Part shown: positions 4,196-35,626 of the stretch, piece by piece
Layout: every line of letters begins with the position of its first letter
Position numbering within the stretch: the stretch's first letter is position 1
Assembly: GCA_028713655.1 (NCBI GenBank)
Contig: JAQTNW010000035.1
Location: forward strand, 1-37,626
DNA: 37,626 nt
Direction of reading: 5' to 3'
Source of the DNA: Candidatus Methylacidiphilales bacterium
GTDB lineage: Bacteria; Verrucomicrobiota; Verrucomicrobiia; Methylacidiphilales; JAAUTS01
Notes under the pieces: generated by a model
Seen by the model: the letters and a program-made list of their open reading frames with translations, nothing else
Databases searched by the model: none
Told to the model about the DNA's origin: nothing
Program-made: the position numbers and the translations under genes

Positions 4196-5734
4196 CTAAT
4201 GACGGGATTCCTTGATGGACTGGCGCAGGTATCGTTCCACTTCCAACCGGGCTTGCCCCAGATCCGGGTACCCCGTCACCACAATTTCCAAAACCTGTTG
4301 TCCGAGCTGCCGCTTCCCTTCGATTACAGCCTCAAACCTGCGAAAACGGCTTCCATCCACTGATGGCCATTCGCGAAGCCCTTTAACATCGCGTTGTTCC
4401 GAAAGCACATAAAAAACATGGAGAATCCGCCCATTCCAGCGAAATGTGTACATGCGAAGAGGCAGGCGTAATCCCGTCAAGTCCAACACTTCCTCCCCGG
4501 CTGATTCCAGCAGAGTGCCGCCCGCCGCAGGCAGGCAGATTTCAGGCGAATGGCTTCGTGCGAGAGTTTCGGCGCCTTTTCCGGGATTCCATCGAAAACT
4601 GAACACGTTCCAAGTACTTCCATCCGGGCGCTTCATGACTCCCTGCCAGCCTTCATCATAGCGAAGAATGCTTTTGATTTCGGACGGAATTTCGCGCTTT
4701 TCATAGCTCGCCCCCTTGGGCGGCCACTCCAGTTTCCACTCCGCCAAATGGGGCTGCGGGTGTTCGTGAAGCCGGTACCAGCCTTCCGTCAGCACTTCGA
4801 CCAGGAATATCCAGACCAACAAAACAACCGCTGCGCGGAATGGCGGAAGCGAAACAGACGGGATTTTGATTCTCGGCTGCGGGTCGCGTGGTTCCGGCGC
4901 TGTCCTGAGCCTGGCTGCGACGAGCAATAAAACCGCAAAGGACAAAGATAAAATGAGCAGCCCGGCAGGATCATGCCAGGAGGCGAGAGCGGCCTGTCCG
5001 CGTAGCACGCACAAACCGGTCAAAAAAAGAGCCCGCAGCAGGTTGAAAACGACGGCGCACACAAGCCCGAAGGCCAGCAATCCTCCGCGCCGCGCCGGTC
5101 TGAGTTGGTAAAACTCTCCGACAAACAGGGAGGCCATCAAAGTGGACTGAAGCGACCGTATTCCACTGCAGGCTTCATTGATGCCGATCACGCCCTGGGA
5201 GAGGTGGATCAGATTTCCCTGTTGCACCGCCCATACGCCGAGCCAGTTCATGACTTCCACCGTCACCCCCGCCACACCGCGCATGAGGTTTTGTTCCAGG
5301 GCCGTTTCGAGTCCCGTGGGCCAGGGAACAGACAGCAACATGAAAGCAAATGGAAAAATAAAATGCCGCACCCAGCTCCGGCCCCCTGACAAATAGATCA
5401 TCCATACCGTAATCGCGAGTACCACGAGGGCCAGAGCCCAACTGACCAGCCGCCAGTCGGGATTGGCTTCCTGCAACAGGCGGATTGGCAAAAGACAGAA
5501 AGCAACGATCCAGCCCGTCCAAGCCGGGAATTGAGCAGGCCTGTCCGGTGGCGGCCGTGACATCCAACGCAACCAGAGCAAATAGCCGGACAGGAAGGGC
5601 ATGAGCCAGCCGTAGCTGTATTGGGGATTCAGCGTCCAATCCGCGGATAACTGTTTGACCAACATCAGCCAGAGAAGCGCAAGCAGGACCGGAACAGACC
5701 GGTGCCGAAGCCGAGAATGAAAAAAACCGGACAT
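4196..5734 (-). CDS. exosortase with C-terminal EpsI domain
   Basis: Exosortases are multi-pass membrane transpeptidases that recognise a C-terminal sorting signal (PEP-CTERM or similar) and process the cargo for surface attachment or release. The 512-residue protein has about eight hydrophobic segments in residues 12-275. The family catalytic triad is visible: Cys189 in EACSGIRS, Arg234 in FNLLRA and His254 in SWHDPAG. Residues of about 300-512 form an EpsI-type periplasmic domain with the hallmark HSPEICLP at 395-402. The frame is open further upstream (to 6322), but that part is antisense to the TPR gene and lacks membrane-protein character, so I take the ATG at 5734, which begins MSGFFHSRLR just before the first membrane helix. 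It is divergent from the TPR gene (87 bases between starts). The subtype (XrtC or other) cannot be decided here. Confidence 0.9.
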   Translation of the reverse strand: MSGFFHSRLRHRSVPVLLALLWLMLVKQLSADWTLNPQYSYGWLMPFLSGYLLWLRWMSRPPPDRPAQFPAWTGWIVAFCLLPIRLLQEANPDWRLVSWALALVVLAITVWMIYLSGGRSWVRHFIFPFAFMLLSVPWPTGLETALEQNLMRGVAGVTVEVMNWLGVWAVQQGNLIHLSQGVIGINEACSGIRSLQSTLMASLFVGEFYQLRPARRGGLLAFGLVCAVVFNLLRALFLTGLCVLRGQAALASWHDPAGLLILSLSFAVLLLVAARLRTAPEPRDPQPRIKIPSVSLPPFRAAVVLLVWIFLVEVLTEGWYRLHEHPQPHLAEWKLEWPPKGASYEKREIPSEIKSILRYDEGWQGVMKRPDGSTWNVFSFRWNPGKGAETLARSHSPEICLPAAGGTLLESAGEEVLDLTGLRLPLRMYTFRWNGRILHVFYVLSEQRDVKGLREWPSVDGSRFRRFEAVIEGKRQLGQQVLEIVVTGYPDLGQARLEVERYLRQSIKESRH

Positions 5735-7510: not shown

Positions 7511-7548
7511 GTGTGTTTAAGGTTAGTCGGGTAGAATTGTAATTGTTC

Positions 7549-9129
7549 ATGCAACAGAATTCCATGGAACGACTGGGGGCGTCGAACGGCGGTTCTTCCG
7601 AACTTCGACGCCTGCTTTTGATTGAAGACGATGAAAGCTTGTCGGATGTCATCCGGTTGAGCCTTAAAAGCGCGCAGTATGACGTGATCTGCTGCGTGGA
7701 CGGTCACAGCGGGTTGGAGACGGCAAAAAACAATAACATCGATCTGGTGTTATGCGATGTGCATCTGCCGGACATGAGCGGATTGGAAATCACCCAGGCG
7801 TTGCACAAGCAGAAGGCGCACCTCCCGATTATTGTCATGAGCGGGTTTGCCACGAGCAGCACCGCGATCGAAGCCACCCGGAACGGGGCCTATGATTTCC
7901 TGTTGAAACCGTTCCCGTTAGAGGATTTGCTCGCAATCCTCGACCAGGCCTGGAATGCCAGCAACCTGCGCTGCAAACAGGTCACGCTGGATGCCCCCGA
8001 CGCCGGCGAAGGAACCATGATCGGCAAGAGCAAGGTGATGCAGGATGTTTTCAAACAGGTTGGACGCCTCGCCGACCGGTCCATGAATGTGGTCATTCGC
8101 GGGGAAACCGGCACGGGCAAGGAAATGATTGCCCGCGCGCTCTTCCAGTACGGGGATCGTTCCGCCGAGCCCTTCATTCCGGTGAACTGCGCGGCCATTC
8201 CGGAAACCCTTCTTGAAAGCGAACTGTTCGGCCATGAACGGGGGGCTTTTACCGGAGCGCATTCCACGCGGATCGGACGTTTTGAGCAGGCTAAAAACGG
8301 GACCATTTTTCTGGATGAAATCGGCGAGATGTCGGTGGCCACGCAATCCAAGCTGCTCCGCGTATTGCAGGAAAAGCGATTCCAACGTTTGGGCAGCAAA
8401 TCGGATATTGCCACCAACGCGCGCGTGATTGCCGCCACCAGCCGGGATTTGCTGCAGGCCATCCAAAAGAACGAATTTCGCGAGGATCTTTTTTACCGTC
8501 TGAGCGAGGCGGAAATTTATCTCCCGCCGCTGCGCGAGCGCGGAGACGATCTCCGGCACCTGATCAACACCTTTTTGCTTTATTTTGGAAAGGAATTCGG
8601 CGTCGAACGCCCGTCCATCCAAAAGGACGCGATGGAGTTTCTCCTCCGGCAATCCTGGCCCGGAAATGTGCGGGAACTGCGCAATGCGGTGCGCAAAGCC
8701 CTGATTGCCTCAAAAGGTTATCCGGTTTCGCTCGAACATGTGCAAAGCGCCGCCTTCAATTTCATCAGCGCCGGGGACGTGAAGGAAACGGGGCTGGGTG
8801 AGTTCATACGCCGGCAAATGGAAGCGGCCGCGCGCGGCGAGGCTTCCAACATCATGCAAACGCTGATCAACACGCTGGAAAAGGAAGCCTACGAGATGGC
8901 GATCACACTGGCCCGCGGCAACCAGTCCCGGGCGGCGGGCTGGCTTGGGGTCTCCCTCCCCACCATGCGCGAGCGGTTGATGCACTTCGGGCTGCACCCG
9001 AAGCAACCGCTGTTTGCTAAAACCAATGGAGGGACGACCGCCGTGTCGTCTCCTGACACAAGTTCGCCTGCGAAACCGAAGCCGCCAAAGCGCAAAGGGA
9101 AACAAGCATCGCCGCGAAAGAGCGCATAG
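7549..9129 (+). CDS. NtrC-family sigma-54-dependent response regulator
   Basis: The protein has the full activator architecture. A receiver domain covers residues of about 17-135, with acidic pocket IEDDE and phospho-acceptor Asp70 in LVLCDVHLPDMSG. An AAA+ domain covers about 160-395, with Walker A GETGTGKE (185-192), the sigma-54-contacting GAFTGA loop (232-237) and Walker B-type IFLDEIGEM. A Fis-type helix-turn-helix follows at about 445-490 (NQSRAAGWLGVSLPTMRERL). The tail after 495 is Lys/Pro/Ser-rich and probably disordered. It activates sigma-54 promoters when phosphorylated by an unknown histidine kinase, not in this window. In PEP-CTERM systems a regulator of this kind (PrsR) controls cargo genes, so a role with the neighbouring exosortase is plausible but inferred. 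ATG 7549 is preferred; ATG 7564 or TTG 7543 are alternatives. Confidence 0.92.
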   Translation: MQQNSMERLGASNGGSSELRRLLLIEDDESLSDVIRLSLKSAQYDVICCVDGHSGLETAKNNNIDLVLCDVHLPDMSGLEITQALHKQKAHLPIIVMSGFATSSTAIEATRNGAYDFLLKPFPLEDLLAILDQAWNASNLRCKQVTLDAPDAGEGTMIGKSKVMQDVFKQVGRLADRSMNVVIRGETGTGKEMIARALFQYGDRSAEPFIPVNCAAIPETLLESELFGHERGAFTGAHSTRIGRFEQAKNGTIFLDEIGEMSVATQSKLLRVLQEKRFQRLGSKSDIATNARVIAATSRDLLQAIQKNEFREDLFYRLSEAEIYLPPLRERGDDLRHLINTFLLYFGKEFGVERPSIQKDAMEFLLRQSWPGNVRELRNAVRKALIASKGYPVSLEHVQSAAFNFISAGDVKETGLGEFIRRQMEAAARGEASNIMQTLINTLEKEAYEMAITLARGNQSRAAGWLGVSLPTMRERLMHFGLHPKQPLFAKTNGGTTAVSSPDTSSPAKPKPPKRKGKQASPRKSA

Positions 9130-9171: not shown

Positions 9172-9786
9172 CTAGAAAAAGGCTTTTATATAGGCGCTCG
9201 TCCTCAGTCCTGCCGTCCACTCCAGCCTTTTTCTCTCTTTCGCTTTGCTATAGGCTTCTTGCTGTTCCGGTGTCCCATCTGTGATTGGAATGGGAAGGTG
9301 GAGTGCTTTTAACTCATCACGCGCAGCCATATCCACATTTTTTTGCCTCATGGCTTGGACGATTGTGTTTTCCTTGATATCGATCCTGAACTCCTCATAA
9401 AGCACGCCTTGGGCTTTTAAAGCCTTTGTCAATTCATCCCAATTCCCCTTAAATTGATCTTGTACAATCCTGTTGATCCTCTCATTCACAACACTTTCCG
9501 GAACAGAGAAGCCATTCTTTTTGAACTCTTGAATTATGAGTCGCCGATCAATCAAATCATTTAATGCTTTGATTCTTGCCGCTTTGACGCCTTCGAGCAA
9601 TTTGCCCTTGTCAGCAGGATATTTTTCTCTCAGGCCACGCTCTGCGGAATCCGCATTTTTTCGCACATCCGAGAAGGTGATGACATCGTCATTCACAACA
9701 GCGGCGATGCCATCAACAACCTGCCCGCTCAACAAGCCGCTGTTCAATACAAACCAGCCCAGGATAAGTAAGAAATGTTTTCCCAT
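9172..9786 (-). CDS. small periplasmic SurA-N-domain protein (no PPIase domain)
   Basis: This 204-residue protein has a signal peptide (residues 1-22, MGKHFLLILGWFVLNSGLLSG) followed by the start typical of SurA chaperones: VVDGIAAVVNDDVITFSDV, then LNDLIDRRLIIQEFKKNGF and a helical SurA_N region to about residue 150. SurA carries unfolded outer-membrane proteins to the BAM complex. Full-length SurA (about 430 residues) has one or two parvulin domains; here the protein ends without any, leaving only the chaperone module and a short charged tail. It starts seven bases after the stop of the M56-POTRA gene and is clearly the third gene of the same operon, placing an OMP chaperone module beside a protein with BamA-type domains. 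The minus-strand end is convergent with the response regulator. Confidence 0.82.
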   Translation of the reverse strand: MGKHFLLILGWFVLNSGLLSGQVVDGIAAVVNDDVITFSDVRKNADSAERGLREKYPADKGKLLEGVKAARIKALNDLIDRRLIIQEFKKNGFSVPESVVNERINRIVQDQFKGNWDELTKALKAQGVLYEEFRIDIKENTIVQAMRQKNVDMAARDELKALHLPIPITDGTPEQQEAYSKAKERKRLEWTAGLRTSAYIKAFF

Positions 9787-9793
9787 GGAATTT

Positions 9794-11365
9794 CTAACGA
9801 TTGATTGTGAATGTCACATCCGCCAACGCCAATTGCTCGTTGTCCTTGATTTCGTGTGTTACGACTGGATTGGAAATACCCATGCGATGGAGAGTTGTCT
9901 CAATTCTTTTTGCGTCCCGATATGCCGCGAAGTCGCTGTAGAGACTTCCAATTTCGGCTTCCGCACCATCGAGAATGTCATTTTCGGCCAGAGAACCCGC
10001 GCCTTTAATTTGGATTGATTTTATGGACGGGTTTGGCTGGAGCACCACCACAACTTTCACGCCGCCCGCCATCGCTTCATCGTAAATGCGGAGGTTCTTG
10101 AACAGCCCGGTGGCATAGAGCTTCCGGATGTCCCGCGCTACCGCTGCAATTGAATAAGCTCCTCCTTTTTTCATGCTCATTATTTCCAGAATGAAATTCT
10201 TGTCGGGTTTTCTGGGGCCTGCATATTCCAGTTCTATCTCTCCGATATTCGGGCTCTTTGAGTCCGCCACGGGAGATGATTGTTTGTTTGCAGCCGCTTC
10301 TTTTTGCTGCTCATTGGCAGCCTCGACGGGCCGCAATATTCCCAGCATGACAACGAAGGCTGTGGCAACCATTCCGATTCCAGCCAGTCTGAGCAGGCCC
10401 AGTCGTGTTCTCACCACTCTCGAGACGTCAAACATCCGTTCGACTCTGCGGCCGAGGGCTGAGCGAAATGATGCCATGGGAATACCGGCCGTGAGCAGGC
10501 TCTTCTCGCAGAGTTGGCATTCGGCCAAATCCACCAACTGCATGGCATAGCGGCCCGGATTCTCAGTCTGGCTAACTACCCAATCATCACAAACTTCCTC
10601 CGCGCGCTCTTCCTGCCGCCATGCAGTCCACCAGGCCAATGGGTGAAAAAACAGGAGCGCCGCTGTTAGATGTCCGGCCAACTGCCACCAGGCGTCATGC
10701 CGTTTCAGATGGCCGAGTTCGTGAAGAAGAACTTCGGAAGTTGGGTTGGGATTGGAAGCGGGAAGAACGATGGCCGGGTTCCATAGGCCAATCAATGCCG
10801 GGCTTGAAACCACATCGCTGACACAGACCACCGGCGCTTTCAGGCTCACATTCTCCGCCAGGAGCGCGGCTTTCTGCTGAATTTGCTCCGATGCGGCCCA
10901 TGTTTGCTTGCGCCAGCCCGCCACCCGCGCATAGGCAATCCCCAGACGGGCAAGCATCACGATGATACCCGCGAACCATACCCCCATCAACACATGTACT
11001 AATGAAAAATGACGGCCAGTAACTGCAACATCTGTGTTCCTTTCCAAGTTTGATTGGGGTTTGGCTTTTACATCCAAAGCGAAATTTGAAATGGCTCCTT
11101 CCGTTGGGTAAAGATTTTTTGCAACTGCACCCCATGAACCATCCATCATATTTAACGGCGGCAGAACCGGCACGGTATATGTCCGTATTTGCAACACCCC
11201 CACCACTGTCAAAACCACCGGGCAAGCAAGCACGGCCAGAAATGACGCTCTTAAACAGGCATTTTGCATGAGGGCTCCCTGTCGGGACAGCAGACGGTCC
11301 GCCAGAATGCCTGACAGCAAAAGGAGTGTTGTTCCGGTAATAAATACAAAAATCAGCGTGCTCAT
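9794..11365 (-). CDS. BlaR1-like M56 metallopeptidase with tandem POTRA sensor domain
   Basis: The layout matches BlaR1/MecR1. Membrane helices lie at about 3-24, 36-60 and 121-143, a cytoplasmic M56 zinc-peptidase domain at 145-325 has HELGH at 215-219 and the downstream acidic ligand region EEVCDDW (256-262), and a fourth helix lies at 325-348. Residues 350-523 then face the periplasm. In BlaR1 this outer part is a penicillin-binding sensor. Here it has two POTRA-like repeats: 374-443 (YSIAAVARDIRKLYATGLFKN, a near-signature of BamA POTRA domains, then VKVVVVLQPNP) and 445-522 (IKSIQIKGAGSLAENDIL ... LADVTFTINR). BlaR1 proteins pass an outside signal through the membrane to the peptidase, which inactivates BlaI. 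The start overlaps the BlaI stop by four bases (ATGA), so translation is coupled. POTRA domains bind unfolded beta-barrel proteins and their chaperones, so the sensed signal is probably outer-membrane assembly stress (inference). Confidence 0.9.
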   Translation of the reverse strand: MSTLIFVFITGTTLLLLSGILADRLLSRQGALMQNACLRASFLAVLACPVVLTVVGVLQIRTYTVPVLPPLNMMDGSWGAVAKNLYPTEGAISNFALDVKAKPQSNLERNTDVAVTGRHFSLVHVLMGVWFAGIIVMLARLGIAYARVAGWRKQTWAASEQIQQKAALLAENVSLKAPVVCVSDVVSSPALIGLWNPAIVLPASNPNPTSEVLLHELGHLKRHDAWWQLAGHLTAALLFFHPLAWWTAWRQEERAEEVCDDWVVSQTENPGRYAMQLVDLAECQLCEKSLLTAGIPMASFRSALGRRVERMFDVSRVVRTRLGLLRLAGIGMVATAFVVMLGILRPVEAANEQQKEAAANKQSSPVADSKSPNIGEIELEYAGPRKPDKNFILEIMSMKKGGAYSIAAVARDIRKLYATGLFKNLRIYDEAMAGGVKVVVVLQPNPSIKSIQIKGAGSLAENDILDGAEAEIGSLYSDFAAYRDAKRIETTLHRMGISNPVVTHEIKDNEQLALADVTFTINR

Positions 11366-11766
11366 TTCACTTTCCCCTTTTCCTGAACCAATTTCCTAAT
11401 CTCTCTTAGTTCATCCGGCGACAGCTTTTCACTTTTCAGCAAATACGAAACGAGCCCGGGTACGGAGCCGTTGAAAATTCTCTGTACGAAATCCTGTGTC
11501 GCTTTCTGCATCGCGTTTTCTTCACGCACCAATGGGTAAAAGATGAAAGTTCTCTCCTTAACTTCATGGGAGATGGCTCCTTTTTCTTCCAACTTTCGCA
11601 ACAGTGTCTGCACGGTGCTGTGGGCGGTCTGCGCCTCGCTTCTTTCAGAGTTGAGTTCATCTGTAATGGCGCGCGCATTCATGCGTTGACGCCACAAGAG
11701 CCTCATGATGCGCAGTTGCAATTTGCCAAAACGATGGCTTCGATCCTTCTGCTGGCGATTGGGCAT
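11362..11766 (-). CDS. BlaI/MecI-family transcriptional repressor
   Basis: This 134-residue protein has the usual BlaI length and layout. A winged helix-turn-helix at about residues 12-80 contains LQLRIMRLLWRQRMNARAITDEL and the recognition-helix region AHSTVQTLLRKLEEKGAISHE, followed by wing residues and a helical dimerisation region (85-130). BlaI dimers bind TAC-N4-GTA type dyads and block transcription until the partner M56 peptidase is activated. The gene is first in the operon, and its stop overlaps the start of the M56-POTRA gene by four bases. A matching dyad lies just upstream over the -10 box, so it probably represses its own operon. Other targets are unknown. It is divergent from rpsB. 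Confidence 0.93.
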   Translation of the reverse strand: MPNRQQKDRSHRFGKLQLRIMRLLWRQRMNARAITDELNSERSEAQTAHSTVQTLLRKLEEKGAISHEVKERTFIFYPLVREENAMQKATQDFVQRIFNGSVPGLVSYLLKSEKLSPDELREIRKLVQEKGKVK

Positions 11767-11777
11767 GCGCGATCATT

Positions 11778-11787
11778 TACCATAGTA
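11778..11787 (-). promoter_or_regulatory. candidate BlaI operator (TAC-N4-GTA dyad)
   Basis: TACTATGGTA on the minus strand is a TAC/GTA dyad with the four-base spacing of known bla/mec operators (core TAC-ATAT-GTA). It lies 11 bases before the BlaI start and overlaps the predicted -10 hexamer, the expected place for a repressor site. The dyad is short, so chance occurrence is possible, but the position is telling. Confidence 0.5.
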
Positions 11788-11809
11788 GATTTAGCAGAGT
11801 CAATGCCAA
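11782..11809 (-). promoter_or_regulatory. candidate sigma-70 promoter of the BlaI-M56-SurA operon
   Basis: TTGGCA (11809-11804, five of six consensus bases), a 16-base spacer and TACTAT (11787-11782, four of six) form a good vegetative promoter on the minus strand. It would start transcription around 11775, leaving a leader of only about ten bases before the ATG at 11766, where no Shine-Dalgarno sequence is seen. Confidence 0.5.
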
Positions 11810-15808: not shown

Positions 15809-15935
15809 AAAATCCGCATTGCGGCGGGTTGGAGGACATGATGAATTGTTTTGCCCGATAATTCAAAATTTATTAACGGTTCATATTCCATGCATCCTGT
15901 GATAATAATCCGGGCTGTTTGTGGCATTTAAAACT

Positions 15936-18900
15936 ATGAATTCATCCCAGTCTTCACTCTGGCGGCTTCTCATCGCCCAGACCCAGGTCGTTTTCAACGA
16001 CAACGCCGCCAAGCTGGTCCTCATCGGCGCGGCTCCTCTTATCCTTTCCAAAACCGAGGCCGACTGGGTGACGGACCTGCTCGCAGTCTTGCTCGTACTG
16101 CCCTTCGCCCTCTTTTCGCCGCTTTGCGGCTGGGTCGCCGACCGGTTTCCGAAAAAGACAGTCCTGCGCCGGGCCCTCTACCTGCAGGGCTTTCTGATCC
16201 TGATCCTCACCGGCGCGCTGTATTTTCACCAGTTGAAACCGGCCATCGCCGTGTTTTTCTTTCTCGCGTGCCAGGCTTGCCTGTTTTCGCCGGCCAAGCA
16301 GGGGGCTTTAAAGGAAATTGTCGGCTCCGCGGGACTGGGCCGCGCGGTCGGCTTGATGGAGTCGCTCACCATTTGCGCGATTCTGCTCGGCAGCCTTGGC
16401 GGCGGCTGGCTTTTTGACAGGCTCAACACACATTTCCGAAATCCATGGACAGGCGCCACCATCGCTTTTGCCTGCCTGTCAGCCGGCTGCGGGCTTTCCA
16501 TCCTGGTTTTTCGCGGCACGGAAACCGGCGGCTCAAAAACGCAGGACCCTTTTAATCCATCATTGTTTTGGAGCCATTTTCGCGATCTTTTCAACCTCTG
16601 GTCAAACCGCTCGTTGTTTCTTTGCGCAATCGGCGTCGCCTATTTTTATGCGCTCGGCGGGGCGCTCTATCTCGTGCTGATCCAGGTCGGGCGCGATCTG
16701 TACCCGGGCACCAGCCATGCCGCCCTGACCAGCGGCTGGTTTCTGGCCTTGTTGGGGATGGGAGTCATCGCGGGTTCGACAATCGTCATTTATTTCTCCA
16801 AACACCGGCAGGAACTGGGTCTTGTTCCGGTTGGCGGGATCGGCTTGACAATCGGCCTCGTATATCTCGCTTTTGCGCCCGCGCAAACTTCCGCGTTCGA
16901 AGTGGGGCTGCTCGGCCTTGGGGTTTGCTCCGGCCTGTTTATCGTCCCCCTCAACACTTTTCTGCAGGACCGCTCGCCCGAGGACCGGCGCGGCCGTGTG
17001 CTGGCCGCCGCCAATCTGCTGATCAATCTGGGAGGCATCGCTGCCGTCGGCTACCAGGCGCTTTTGGCAAACATCCTGCATTTTTCATCAAGGTCCCAAA
17101 TGCTGGCCCTCGTTCCTTCCACGCTGCTCGTGGCCCTTTGCATCATCTTTCTGCTTCCGGAAAGCATGCTTCGCTTTTTGCACGGCTTCTGGGGACGCGT
17201 GATCTACCGCGTGCGTGTTCTCGGTGCGGAAAATATCCCCTCCGGCGGCGCACTATTCGTCTGCAATCACGTCAGCTATGTCGATGCCATCGTGCTTCAA
17301 CTGGCCTGCCCGCGCCCCATCCGTTTCATGTCGTTTGACGAATTTTTTTCGGTGCCGTTGCTCGGATGGATCTTGAGGATTTCGGGAGCCATTCCGGTTT
17401 CCCCCTTGCGAGCCAAGGACGCCATTCAAAAAGCCGCCGCGAAGCTGCAACAAGGCGAGTTGGTTTGCATCTTTCCGGAAGGGGAACTGACGCATACCGG
17501 AAAGATCATGGGATTCAGGAAAGGCTTTGAACTCATCGCGCGGCGGGCGGGAGCCCCGGTTGTGCCGGTACATTTGGATTCGCTTTGGGGCTCCATCTTT
17601 TCATTCACCGGGGGGCGCTATTTTTTCAAGCTCCCAAAAAGGGTCCCGCACGCGGCCACGGTCTCGTTTGGCAAACCGGTCCCGCCGGATGCCGCCACGG
17701 CTTCCCTGCTGAAGCAACGAATCTTTGATCTGGGCGAAGCGGCTTTTCATTTCCGGCCCGAAGTCACCCAGTCTCTGGGACTGGCGATCATCCATGCCTT
17801 GCGCCAAAGGCCCTGGAAAACCTGCCTCATCGACTGCAGCACGCCCCGCAAAAGTTATTCGCGCGCCTCCGTTTTGGGCACGGCCCTGGCGCTCAGCCGT
17901 TCAATCGCACAAACACCCGGCAAGCGCGTTGGCATTGCCTTGCAACCCGGAGCGGGCGCTGTGTGGGCCAGCCTGGCCTGTATTTTTTCTGGAAAAATTC
18001 CGGTCCATCTCGATCCCAGCCTGGAACAAAACGCAACAGTGGCATTGCTGCAAAGCGCGGGCATTGAAACCCTCATTACGGATGAAGGCAACCGCGGCCG
18101 TTTCAAATCTTACCTCCGTTCGGTTTTGGATATTGCGGATTTGATTTCAAGCTGCGGCAAAACCCGGATTTTGCTCGATGCCGCAACCGCGCAATTGCTG
18201 CCTCCACGCCGCGTCCTCAACCTTCCAGGGATCGAAAACAAGCCTTGCGGGGATGAAGCCGCGCTGCTGTTCACTAACAATAACTCGCGCGCGCCCCTTG
18301 CCGTGCCCCTGACTCACGCGAATATACTTGGCAACATCAACCAGGTGGATTCCGTCAATATCCTGCGAAAAAATGATGTATTGTTAGGCTGCCTTCCCCT
18401 CTTTCACGGCGTGGGTTTGACCATGACCCTCTGGCTGCCTTTGCTGAAGGGCCTTCGGCTTGTTACCGTCCCTTCATCACTTGATATCTCAGTTCTTGGA
18501 AATGCTGTACACAGCGAAAAAGTCACGCTCCTGCCCGCGACGACTGATACCCTGGCAGATTGCGCCAATCAACTGGATCCGGCACAGTTAAGCAGCGTAC
18601 GGACCGCAATCGTGGAATCGGGAAAACCCGCGCGGGATTTGATGGAGAGCAACTGGCAAAAACTTTCCATCCCGGTCCTGGAAGGCTATGGGCTGCCGGA
18701 AGCCACGACGGTCGTGGCGTTCAATCTGCCCGATCCCCACCCGGACGCAGACAGCCACCAACAAGGGGGCCGGGCGGGTTCGGCGGGACCGTTGCTTCCG
18801 GGCATTGCAGTCCGACTCTTTGAACCCGGCAGCGGACGGGAATTGGCGTTGACTGAAACCGGCATGCTCGCCATCAAAGGCATCAATGTTTTCCATGGCT

Positions 18901-19067
18901 ATTTGAATGATTCCGGCAAGACCGCCGAAATACTCCACGATGGCTGGCTGCTGACCGGCGACCTTGCCCGTTTTGACGATGACGGTTTTCTTTATATTGA
19001 AGGACCGATTCCGCGTGCTTCCATTCCACCCCGTTTGATTCATAACACGGAAACACCCGCGAATTAA
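15936..19067 (+). CDS. LplT-PlsC-Aas-type fusion: MFS transporter, acyltransferase, decayed AMP-binding domain
   Basis: Three modules are fused in 1043 residues. Residues 1-410 form a 12-helix MFS transporter of the LplT (lysophospholipid flippase) type. Residues of about 415-610 are a PlsC acyltransferase with NHVSYVD (443-449, the H-x4-D motif) and FPEGE (513-517). Residues of about 640-1043 resemble the acyl-ACP synthetase part of Aas, which together re-acylates lysophospholipids. The adenylation domain looks damaged: the P-loop normally reading T-S/G-S-T-G-x-P-K is LFTNNNSRAPL (778-788), and the protein stops shortly after TGDLARFDDDGFLYIEG, so the roughly 100-residue C-terminal lid with its catalytic lysine is missing. 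The acyltransferase may work while the synthetase does not. ATG 15936 is chosen; GTG 15921 is an alternative. Confidence 0.85.
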   Translation: MNSSQSSLWRLLIAQTQVVFNDNAAKLVLIGAAPLILSKTEADWVTDLLAVLLVLPFALFSPLCGWVADRFPKKTVLRRALYLQGFLILILTGALYFHQLKPAIAVFFFLACQACLFSPAKQGALKEIVGSAGLGRAVGLMESLTICAILLGSLGGGWLFDRLNTHFRNPWTGATIAFACLSAGCGLSILVFRGTETGGSKTQDPFNPSLFWSHFRDLFNLWSNRSLFLCAIGVAYFYALGGALYLVLIQVGRDLYPGTSHAALTSGWFLALLGMGVIAGSTIVIYFSKHRQELGLVPVGGIGLTIGLVYLAFAPAQTSAFEVGLLGLGVCSGLFIVPLNTFLQDRSPEDRRGRVLAAANLLINLGGIAAVGYQALLANILHFSSRSQMLALVPSTLLVALCIIFLLPESMLRFLHGFWGRVIYRVRVLGAENIPSGGALFVCNHVSYVDAIVLQLACPRPIRFMSFDEFFSVPLLGWILRISGAIPVSPLRAKDAIQKAAAKLQQGELVCIFPEGELTHTGKIMGFRKGFELIARRAGAPVVPVHLDSLWGSIFSFTGGRYFFKLPKRVPHAATVSFGKPVPPDAATASLLKQRIFDLGEAAFHFRPEVTQSLGLAIIHALRQRPWKTCLIDCSTPRKSYSRASVLGTALALSRSIAQTPGKRVGIALQPGAGAVWASLACIFSGKIPVHLDPSLEQNATVALLQSAGIETLITDEGNRGRFKSYLRSVLDIADLISSCGKTRILLDAATAQLLPPRRVLNLPGIENKPCGDEAALLFTNNNSRAPLAVPLTHANILGNINQVDSVNILRKNDVLLGCLPLFHGVGLTMTLWLPLLKGLRLVTVPSSLDISVLGNAVHSEKVTLLPATTDTLADCANQLDPAQLSSVRTAIVESGKPARDLMESNWQKLSIPVLEGYGLPEATTVVAFNLPDPHPDADSHQQGGRAGSAGPLLPGIAVRLFEPGSGRELALTETGMLAIKGINVFHGYLNDSGKTAEILHDGWLLTGDLARFDDDGFLYIEGPIPRASIPPRLIHNTETPAN

Positions 19068-34735: not shown

Positions 34736-35626
34736 TTAATAAACGATCGAAACGGGGGCGCCGGCGCGCACTTTGAGAATTTCCGCGGCTGGCTTTTCCC
34801 TGAAGCTCAGCTCAAAATTATCTTCACTGTTGAAAATGGCAAACAGCCGGTCCTCAGGGCCGTTGGCATAGGTTTTGACCACCGGCAATGACGAAACCTT
34901 TCCATCCATGCTGACTTTGACCAATTTCCCGGTCGGGTCTTGTTCAAAGAGCTTTCGCGGAACGTTTGTGATTACATTGCCATAATGGTCGATATGCACA
35001 ACATGCGCGGTAATCTTCGTACCCAGCCGTGTGGCGGAGTCCAGTTTCAGGCGTGTAACCGTTTTCAGCGGCGGGCCAAAGTTCGACAACGTTTCTCCCG
35101 CCGCCACATGGGCCGCCACCGGGCCGTAAATGTCACGGCCATGAAAGGTTTCAGACACCATGCCGGGGCGGAAGTATTCGGGTTTCGTCAGCTCATAGAC
35201 CGACTCAATTCCCTCCCGCTCCATCACACTGGTAAAGATGCCATTATCGGGGCCGATAAATATCCGCCCTTCCGTAGTCTTTAAAATGATGGCTTTTTGC
35301 TCCGTCCCAACTCCTGGATCCACCACGACCACAAAAATGCTTCCGGGCGCGAAATACCGGGCCGTTTGATCCACCAGATAACTCGCTTCGGGCAGATTAA
35401 AAACAGATATCTCATGGTTGAGATCCTCAATCCGGGCTTGCGGGTAAATCGAATAAATCATCCCCTTCATTTGGGCGACGTACGCGTCCCGGGTTCCGTA
35501 ATCGGTCATAAGTCCGATCAAAGGGTGTTTTCCACTCATGGATGAATCTCCGCAGGCCGTCAAAATGAGCAGCGCCAAGACACCAGTTCCCCGCCTGACC
35601 CAACCGACGTTCTTTGGTTTCGGCAT
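34736..35626 (-). CDS. SAM hydrolase / hydroxide adenosyltransferase family (DUF62), putative lipoprotein
   Basis: The family splits S-adenosylmethionine into adenosine and methionine; halogenase relatives are fluorinase and chlorinase. Typical segments are GLMTDYGTRDAYVAQMKGMI, FVVVVDPGVGTEQKAI, FIGPDNGIFTSV, TFHGRDIYGPVAAHVA and HIDHYGNVITNVP. The first 29 residues (RRGTGVLALLILTAC) make a textbook lipoprotein signal with lipobox L-T-A-C (Cys25), odd for a cytoplasmic SAM enzyme. A second in-frame ATG at 35539 has GGAG eight bases upstream and would give a cytoplasmic form, while the upstream ATG has no such site. Either a periplasmic lipoprotein or two forms are possible. Confidence 0.87.
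   Translation of the reverse strand: MPKPKNVGWVRRGTGVLALLILTACGDSSMSGKHPLIGLMTDYGTRDAYVAQMKGMIYSIYPQARIEDLNHEISVFNLPEASYLVDQTARYFAPGSIFVVVVDPGVGTEQKAIILKTTEGRIFIGPDNGIFTSVMEREGIESVYELTKPEYFRPGMVSETFHGRDIYGPVAAHVAAGETLSNFGPPLKTVTRLKLDSATRLGTKITAHVVHIDHYGNVITNVPRKLFEQDPTGKLVKVSMDGKVSSLPVVKTYANGPEDRLFAIFNSEDNFELSFREKPAAEILKVRAGAPVSIVY

Follow-up and report, generated by a model that had tools for sequence, protein, structure and literature searches.

A BlaR1-type protease with BamA-like POTRA domains, encoded between BlaI and a SurA core: a candidate reporter of outer-membrane protein delivery

Cleavage of the repressor BlaI by M56 proteases is known from other systems. In the BlaR1/BlaI and MecR1/MecI systems of staphylococci and bacilli, the repressor is co-encoded with an M56 zinc protease that possesses four transmembrane helices, an HEXXH...ExxxD signature and a C-terminal sensor of the class-D β-lactamase-like type exposed to the outside, a dyad operator covers the promoter of the system itself, and the accompanying gene encodes a β-lactamase or PBP2a. 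The sensing of outer-membrane protein (OMP) assembly is known mainly from σE/DegS and its kin, and the edge strands of the BamA POTRA domains bind extended peptides. In the case of S. aureus BlaR1, the catalytic motifs are H201EXXH and E242XXXD, together with the conserved Asp210 (PMC9834060). In the case of E. coli, residues 23-28 of SurA (QVVDKV) bind to BamA POTRA-1 by pairing with its edge strand (75-80), and the SurA core makes contact with both POTRA-1 and POTRA-2, as a single unit (PMC11366764); the isolated SurA core has chaperone activity (PMC11401910).

The window analysed here, a stretch of 37,626 nucleotides, carries between positions 11766 and 9172 of the minus strand three genes in series that encode a BlaI repressor, an M56 membrane protease of the BlaR1 type and a SurA-like protein (Table 1). 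The BlaI and M56 genes share 4 bp (ATGA) and a gap of 7 bp precedes the third gene, so that the three overlapping or touching genes described in the initial annotation are borne out, at the same coordinates, by the gene calls and by Pfam. Beyond them, the gene of an NtrC-type regulator (7543-9129) points the other way, and the operon therefore consists of three genes. A search of the window's genome (3.29 Mb, 95% complete) found neither a second M56 protein nor a second BlaI.

Table 1. Features of the BlaI/M56-POTRA/SurA core operon (window coordinates)
Feature	Position	Strand	Evidence
BlaI/MecI-type repressor, 134 aa	11362..11766	-	Pfam Penicillinase_R 5.5e-28; PDB MecI 2e-13
M56 (BlaR1-type) protease with POTRA1-POTRA2 outside domain, 523 aa	9794..11365	-	Pfam, sequence
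M56 catalytic region, residues 80-309	10439..11128	-	Pfam Peptidase_M56 7.1e-24; BlaR1 8exs 8.4e-8 by profile
Zinc motif H215ELGH219; third ligand E256 (E256xxxD260); D224 conserved too	10709..10723 (H215ELGH219)	-	sequence
POTRA1, residues 374-443	10037..10246	-	55% identical to own BamA POTRA1; Pfam, model, fold match
POTRA1 strand 2, residues 422-432, counterpart of E. coli BamA SurA-docking edge strand (75-80)	10070..10102	-	alignment, model
POTRA2, residues 445-522	9800..10033	-	24% identical to own BamA POTRA2; Pfam, model, fold match
SurA core protein, 204 aa: signal peptide, N domain, C-terminal helix	9172..9786	-	Pfam SurA_N_3 1.2e-14
QVVDGI, predicted mature N-terminus, counterpart of E. 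coli SurA docking strand QVVDKV (23-28)	9706..9723	-	alignment
SurA-type C-terminal helix (..LEWTAGLRTSAYIKAFF)	9175..9240	-	sequence comparison
Promoter-like TTGGCA-N16-TACTAT	11782..11809	-	consensus match only, 9/12
Putative BlaI operator AAATCTACTATGGTAAAT, core TAC-N4-GTA, over the -10 box	11775..11792	-	recurrence upstream of BlaI

The M56 protein presents four hydrophobic helices in its hydropathy profile (residues 4-22, 42-60, 120-138 and 327-345), and its H215ELGH, E256xxxD and D224 correspond to H201EXXH, E242XXXD and Asp210 of S. aureus BlaR1. By analogy with the BlaR1 topology, the C-terminal POTRA domain would sit outside. The profile built from the three M56-POTRA loci found in this work (those of the window and of the genomes G001 and G035, described below) matches both BlaR1 (8exs, 8.4e-8) and many BamA structures, and the zinc motif is intact in all three, as is ExxxD.

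The sensor position is occupied by POTRA1-2, unlike in BlaR1 and MecR1, and the penicillin-binding class-D β-lactamase-like domain is absent. Because of this absence the M56-POTRA protein is not a β-lactam receptor, and β-lactam sensing was ruled out as its function. Pfam finds POTRA in two stretches of the protein (4.2e-10) and the NCBIfam BamA model TIGR03303 matches the sensor (8.5e-15). Residues 369-521 and the POTRA1-POTRA2 stretch of this organism's BamA align without gaps (63/153 identical, 41%), an alignment that shows the domain boundaries proposed initially to be correct. AlphaFold modelling of the whole protein gave a poor result (pLDDT 44, two sequences), which was set aside; the fold search was carried out with the segment 355-523 modelled alone (pLDDT 84), which matches residues 22-171 of E. 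coli BamA with a Z of 15.5 and an rmsd of 2.7 over 147 residues, BAM-SurA complexes being among the high-ranking structural matches. The expectation that residues 370-523 fold as a BamA-type POTRA pair is thus upheld: the sensor has the β-α-α-β-β fold as well as sequence kinship with BamA POTRA1-2. The protein terminates at the end of POTRA2, without the C-terminal 16-strand barrel of BamA/Omp85. In the POTRA1 edge strand, R426 aligns with BamA R76. The sensor of G035 has diverged further from the BamA of its own genome (28% identity for POTRA1 and 24% for POTRA2, so that POTRA1 is barely better kept) and carries E at the R76 position.

The third protein had been described as SurA-N. The N domain is indeed present, but the description is incomplete: the C-terminal helix of SurA is kept too, and nothing between the two matches a PPIase domain. 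It is from this composition that we conclude that the operon encodes a SurA core. The resident SurA of the same genome is normal, with one PPIase domain, and the N domains of the two proteins are identical at 67 of 141 positions (48%); by this alignment the operon protein is a paralogue of the organism's own SurA. Since the resident SurA has a QVVDG docking strand as well, this strand is a retained feature and is not peculiar to the operon. The operon and the BamA/SurA docking complex (PDB 8PZ1 and related) both contain the POTRA1-POTRA2 pair and a SurA core with a QVVD strand, whereas the operon lacks the barrel, POTRA3-5 and the PPIase domain, and its POTRA pair is fused to an inner-membrane protease. 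As judged by sequence, the operon carries the two halves of the SurA-BamA docking unit known from E. coli, with hardly anything more of either protein. The pairing of these two halves in one operon is the main new point of this study, and it makes the link with OMP assembly stronger than was apparent in the initial annotation.

The model we propose is a proteolytic relay of the BlaR1/BlaI type in which a decoy of the SurA-docking site of BamA has taken the place of the β-lactam sensor, a proposal whose chances of being right or wrong we consider equal. The M56 protease would be an inner-membrane protein whose POTRA1-POTRA2 pair faces the periplasm, and the SurA core of the operon would dock on this pair as SurA does on BamA. 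The amount of docked SurA core and its load of unfolded OMPs would then report whether OMP delivery keeps pace. A build-up of OMPs would change the docked state and activate the cytoplasmic zinc protease, leading to the removal of BlaI and the derepression of the operon, which would provide more SurA-core chaperone for relief, more sensor, and more BlaI for the reset. Two signs of the signal may be envisaged. By titration, the client-bound SurA core would depart and the protease would wake, which would form a natural homeostatic loop; about equally likely, the arrival of a client-loaded SurA core would activate the protease. In its most specific form, the model states that what the cell senses through the POTRA decoy is the occupancy, or the loading state, of the SurA-BAM handover itself, with the SurA core as ligand and a BlaR1-type protease acting on BlaI, in an outer-membrane stress pathway independent of σE. 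This specific form we regard as possible rather than probable.

A more direct mechanism, along the lines of the initial annotation, is that segments of unfolded OMPs bind the POTRA domains by β-augmentation and thereby activate the protease; in this case the SurA core would be an induced output chaperone only, outside the sensor. The peptide-binding ability of the POTRA edge strands is in agreement with it, as are the usual layout of an output chaperone placed behind its regulator and the existence of a genome, G032, in which a SurA core is present but the sensor is not. It does not account for the fact that the sensor retains only POTRA1-2, the docking pair, while its partner retains exactly the docking strand and the core, and we hold it to be rather unlikely.

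What does BlaI control? Promoter-like sites such as the one predicted at 11782-11809 are only in slight excess in the region (5 against 2.9 by chance), but this one is overlapped by a conserved operator. The 18-mer AAATCTACTATGGTAAAT recurs upstream of BlaI in G001 (16/18), G035 (15/18) and G003:C252 (15/18); in the G035 version, TAC-N4-GTA becomes TAT-N4-ATA, a change on both sides. In the window's genome, a single match with fewer than three mismatches is found, at the operon's own promoter. Allowing up to three mismatches gave 6 matches there against 9 for a reversed-pattern control, hence no sign of a further BlaI regulon, and no operator site pointing to the control of BAM genes by BlaI was found in this genome; a looser pattern with two mismatches, applied to the whole order, gave matches mostly near the control level. 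As no second operator target appears in the genome, the visible circuit is autogenous and comprises three genes rather than a regulon. In the same family, the BlaI/M56 loci L013, L014, L022, L023, L026, L027, L030 and L031 encode BlaR1-like receptors with many differing outside domains and are preceded by classical TTACA-NN-TGTAA-like dyads, often two. Given these classical dyads at the other BlaI genes of the family, AAATCTACTATGGTAAAT looks like the BlaI operator of a subgroup. The odd operator of the window type also precedes BlaI-like genes in G004:C86 and G005:C173, and at L149 (G003:C252, 1902-4495) it accompanies BlaI and an M56 protein whose outside domain is unrelated and bears repeats. 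In the window BlaI, unlike in BlaI/MecI, the residues aligned with the cleavage pair N101-F102 differ; as this pair is not kept, the cut may lie elsewhere.

An operator restricted to the operon's own promoter would also be expected if the POTRA pair were a docking handle, tethering the protease to BAM or to another envelope complex while the signal is a different one, such as cell wall damage or membrane state, and BlaI controls its own operon only. The many unrelated outside domains carried by the other M56 proteins of the genomes compared point in the same direction. This explanation offers no reason for the recurrent association of the protease with a SurA devoid of PPIase, and we consider it improbable. 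That association emerges from the survey of related genomes.

The survey covered 62 genomes of the order, 384 of the class and a phylum-wide sample of 388. Among the matches listed per genome, the M56-POTRA fusion occurs in three of the 384 class genomes (those of the window, G035 and G001), and no further one was found at E 1e-30 in the phylum sample; a profile scan of contigs with a two-row locus alignment returned the G001 contig only. The operon recurs in two other genomes of the 62 searched in the order. In G035, which belongs to another family, BlaI, M56-POTRA and the SurA core are arranged as in the window; the ATGA overlap is present too, and the gap measures 16 bp. In G001, of the same family as the window, M56-POTRA and the SurA core lie at the start of one contig, and BlaI with the M56 N-terminus at the end of another. 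Since the pieces lie at two contig ends, G001 very likely has the operon, split over two contigs. The conservation of the BlaI/M56-POTRA/SurA neighbourhood, on which the initial annotation depended, is therefore seen in G035 and very likely in G001, besides the window.

The G035 M56-POTRA frame is broken near residue 300 (L070, G035:C31, about 5620-5640). In G001, the M56 N-terminal piece (L176, G001:C9, 121-510) runs for 129 aa up to a stop close to the end of the contig; the contig JAAUTS010000084.1, which holds the other half of the operon, has a coverage of 2.3. The frame break and the early stop may reflect assembly error or decay.

A SurA without PPIase is present in 4 of the 384 class genomes, and in three of these four its gene lies directly behind that of M56-POTRA. 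The co-occurrence gives a Fisher value of 4e-7 over the 384 class genomes, which are related, so that the figure is indicative only; with this reserve, the association of the SurA core with M56-POTRA goes beyond chance. The fourth gene (L148, G032:C109, 8603-9217) is an orphan with neither BlaI nor M56 nearby, flanked by genes which, from their translations, we take to be ispH-like and leucyl aminopeptidase-like. The presence of this core without M56-POTRA means that the two are not strictly tied.

In the BamA tree, the three M56-POTRA sensors stand on one side of a branch against 39 BamAs (98/94), with long branches. To see whether the window POTRA was captured recently from the organism's own BamA, the window copy was placed with the BamAs of the same family; this placement is disfavoured (p 0.066) but not rejected, and the long branches weaken this result. 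A single origin of the SurA cores of the window, G001 and G035 is rejected (p-AU 0.011), and the G035 core groups with the resident SurA of G035 (97/93). As for the M56 catalytic domains, those of G035 and G001 group with that of G003:C252 (100/98), whose M56 protein has other outside repeats; a clade of these three and the window is not rejected (p 0.34), and the three M56-POTRA fusions alone are rejected as a clade (p 0.021). Exchange or renewed copying of sensors and chaperone parts has probably taken place on more than one occasion. Cores that track the resident SurA would fit a sensor that needs to mimic the docking pair of its host; a gene conversion devoid of any function would leave the same picture.

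Could the operon be a rare chimera, born of chance fusion and gene copying and drifting without a role? Its detection in three genomes only, the long branches, the broken frame of G035 and the early stop of G001, close to the end of a contig, are what such a history would leave. Drift fits poorly with the intact frames of the window, with a zinc motif present in all three carriers, with the conservation, in two families, of the operator and of the order and spacing of the genes, and with a window POTRA1 that is still 55% identical to that of BamA, and we regard this explanation as very improbable.

The proposed relay with a decoy of the SurA-docking site is favoured by the kinship and fold of the POTRA pair, the PPIase-less SurA core, the QVVDGI strand and the docking data from E. 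coli, to which are added the recurrence of the operon, the co-occurrence of the SurA core with M56-POTRA, the intact catalytic motifs and the conserved operator. We also count in its favour that the G035 core groups with the G035 SurA while a single origin is rejected, as if the core tracked the resident chaperone. Counted against it are a POTRA1 barely better kept than POTRA2 in G035 and the E at its R76 position, the frame break of G035 and the early stop of G001, the lone core of G032, the QVVDG of the resident SurA, the lack of a BAM-gene operator and the non-conservation of N101-F102 in BlaI.

The system belongs to the BlaR1/BlaI kind; it is neither a β-lactam receptor nor a σE system. 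The operon probably reports backed-up delivery of outer-membrane proteins, as far as its composition allows us to judge. The initial reading as an envelope stress response is kept for its link with OMP assembly, in view of the POTRA fold and the SurA core neighbourhood, but the likeness to σE/DegS is an analogy of purpose only. E. coli σE/DegS/RseA resembles the system in its proposed purpose, the reporting of unfolded OMPs by regulated proteolysis; the operon has no sigma factor, no anti-sigma factor and no PDZ sensor, its protease is of another family, and no regulon was found.

In the literature searched, whose coverage was incomplete, no description of an M56-POTRA protein or of such a POTRA-based stress sensor was found. 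If the model is true, docking, as a step of OMP delivery, can act as a signal in its own right, and BlaR1-type receptors accept exchanged sensors. Furthermore, structural studies could draw on the operon for a SurA-core/POTRA pair that is both natural and minimal. Does SurA bind BAM in vivo with or without a client? This question is left open by a recent review (PMC13067283), and the SurA-core/POTRA pair bears on it.

Elsewhere in the window, two other genes were noticed: 15921-19067 encodes a 1048-aa protein that combines an MFS transporter, an acyltransferase and an AMP-binding (acyl-ACP synthetase-like) domain, and 34736-35626 a protein of the SAM hydroxide adenosyltransferase family.
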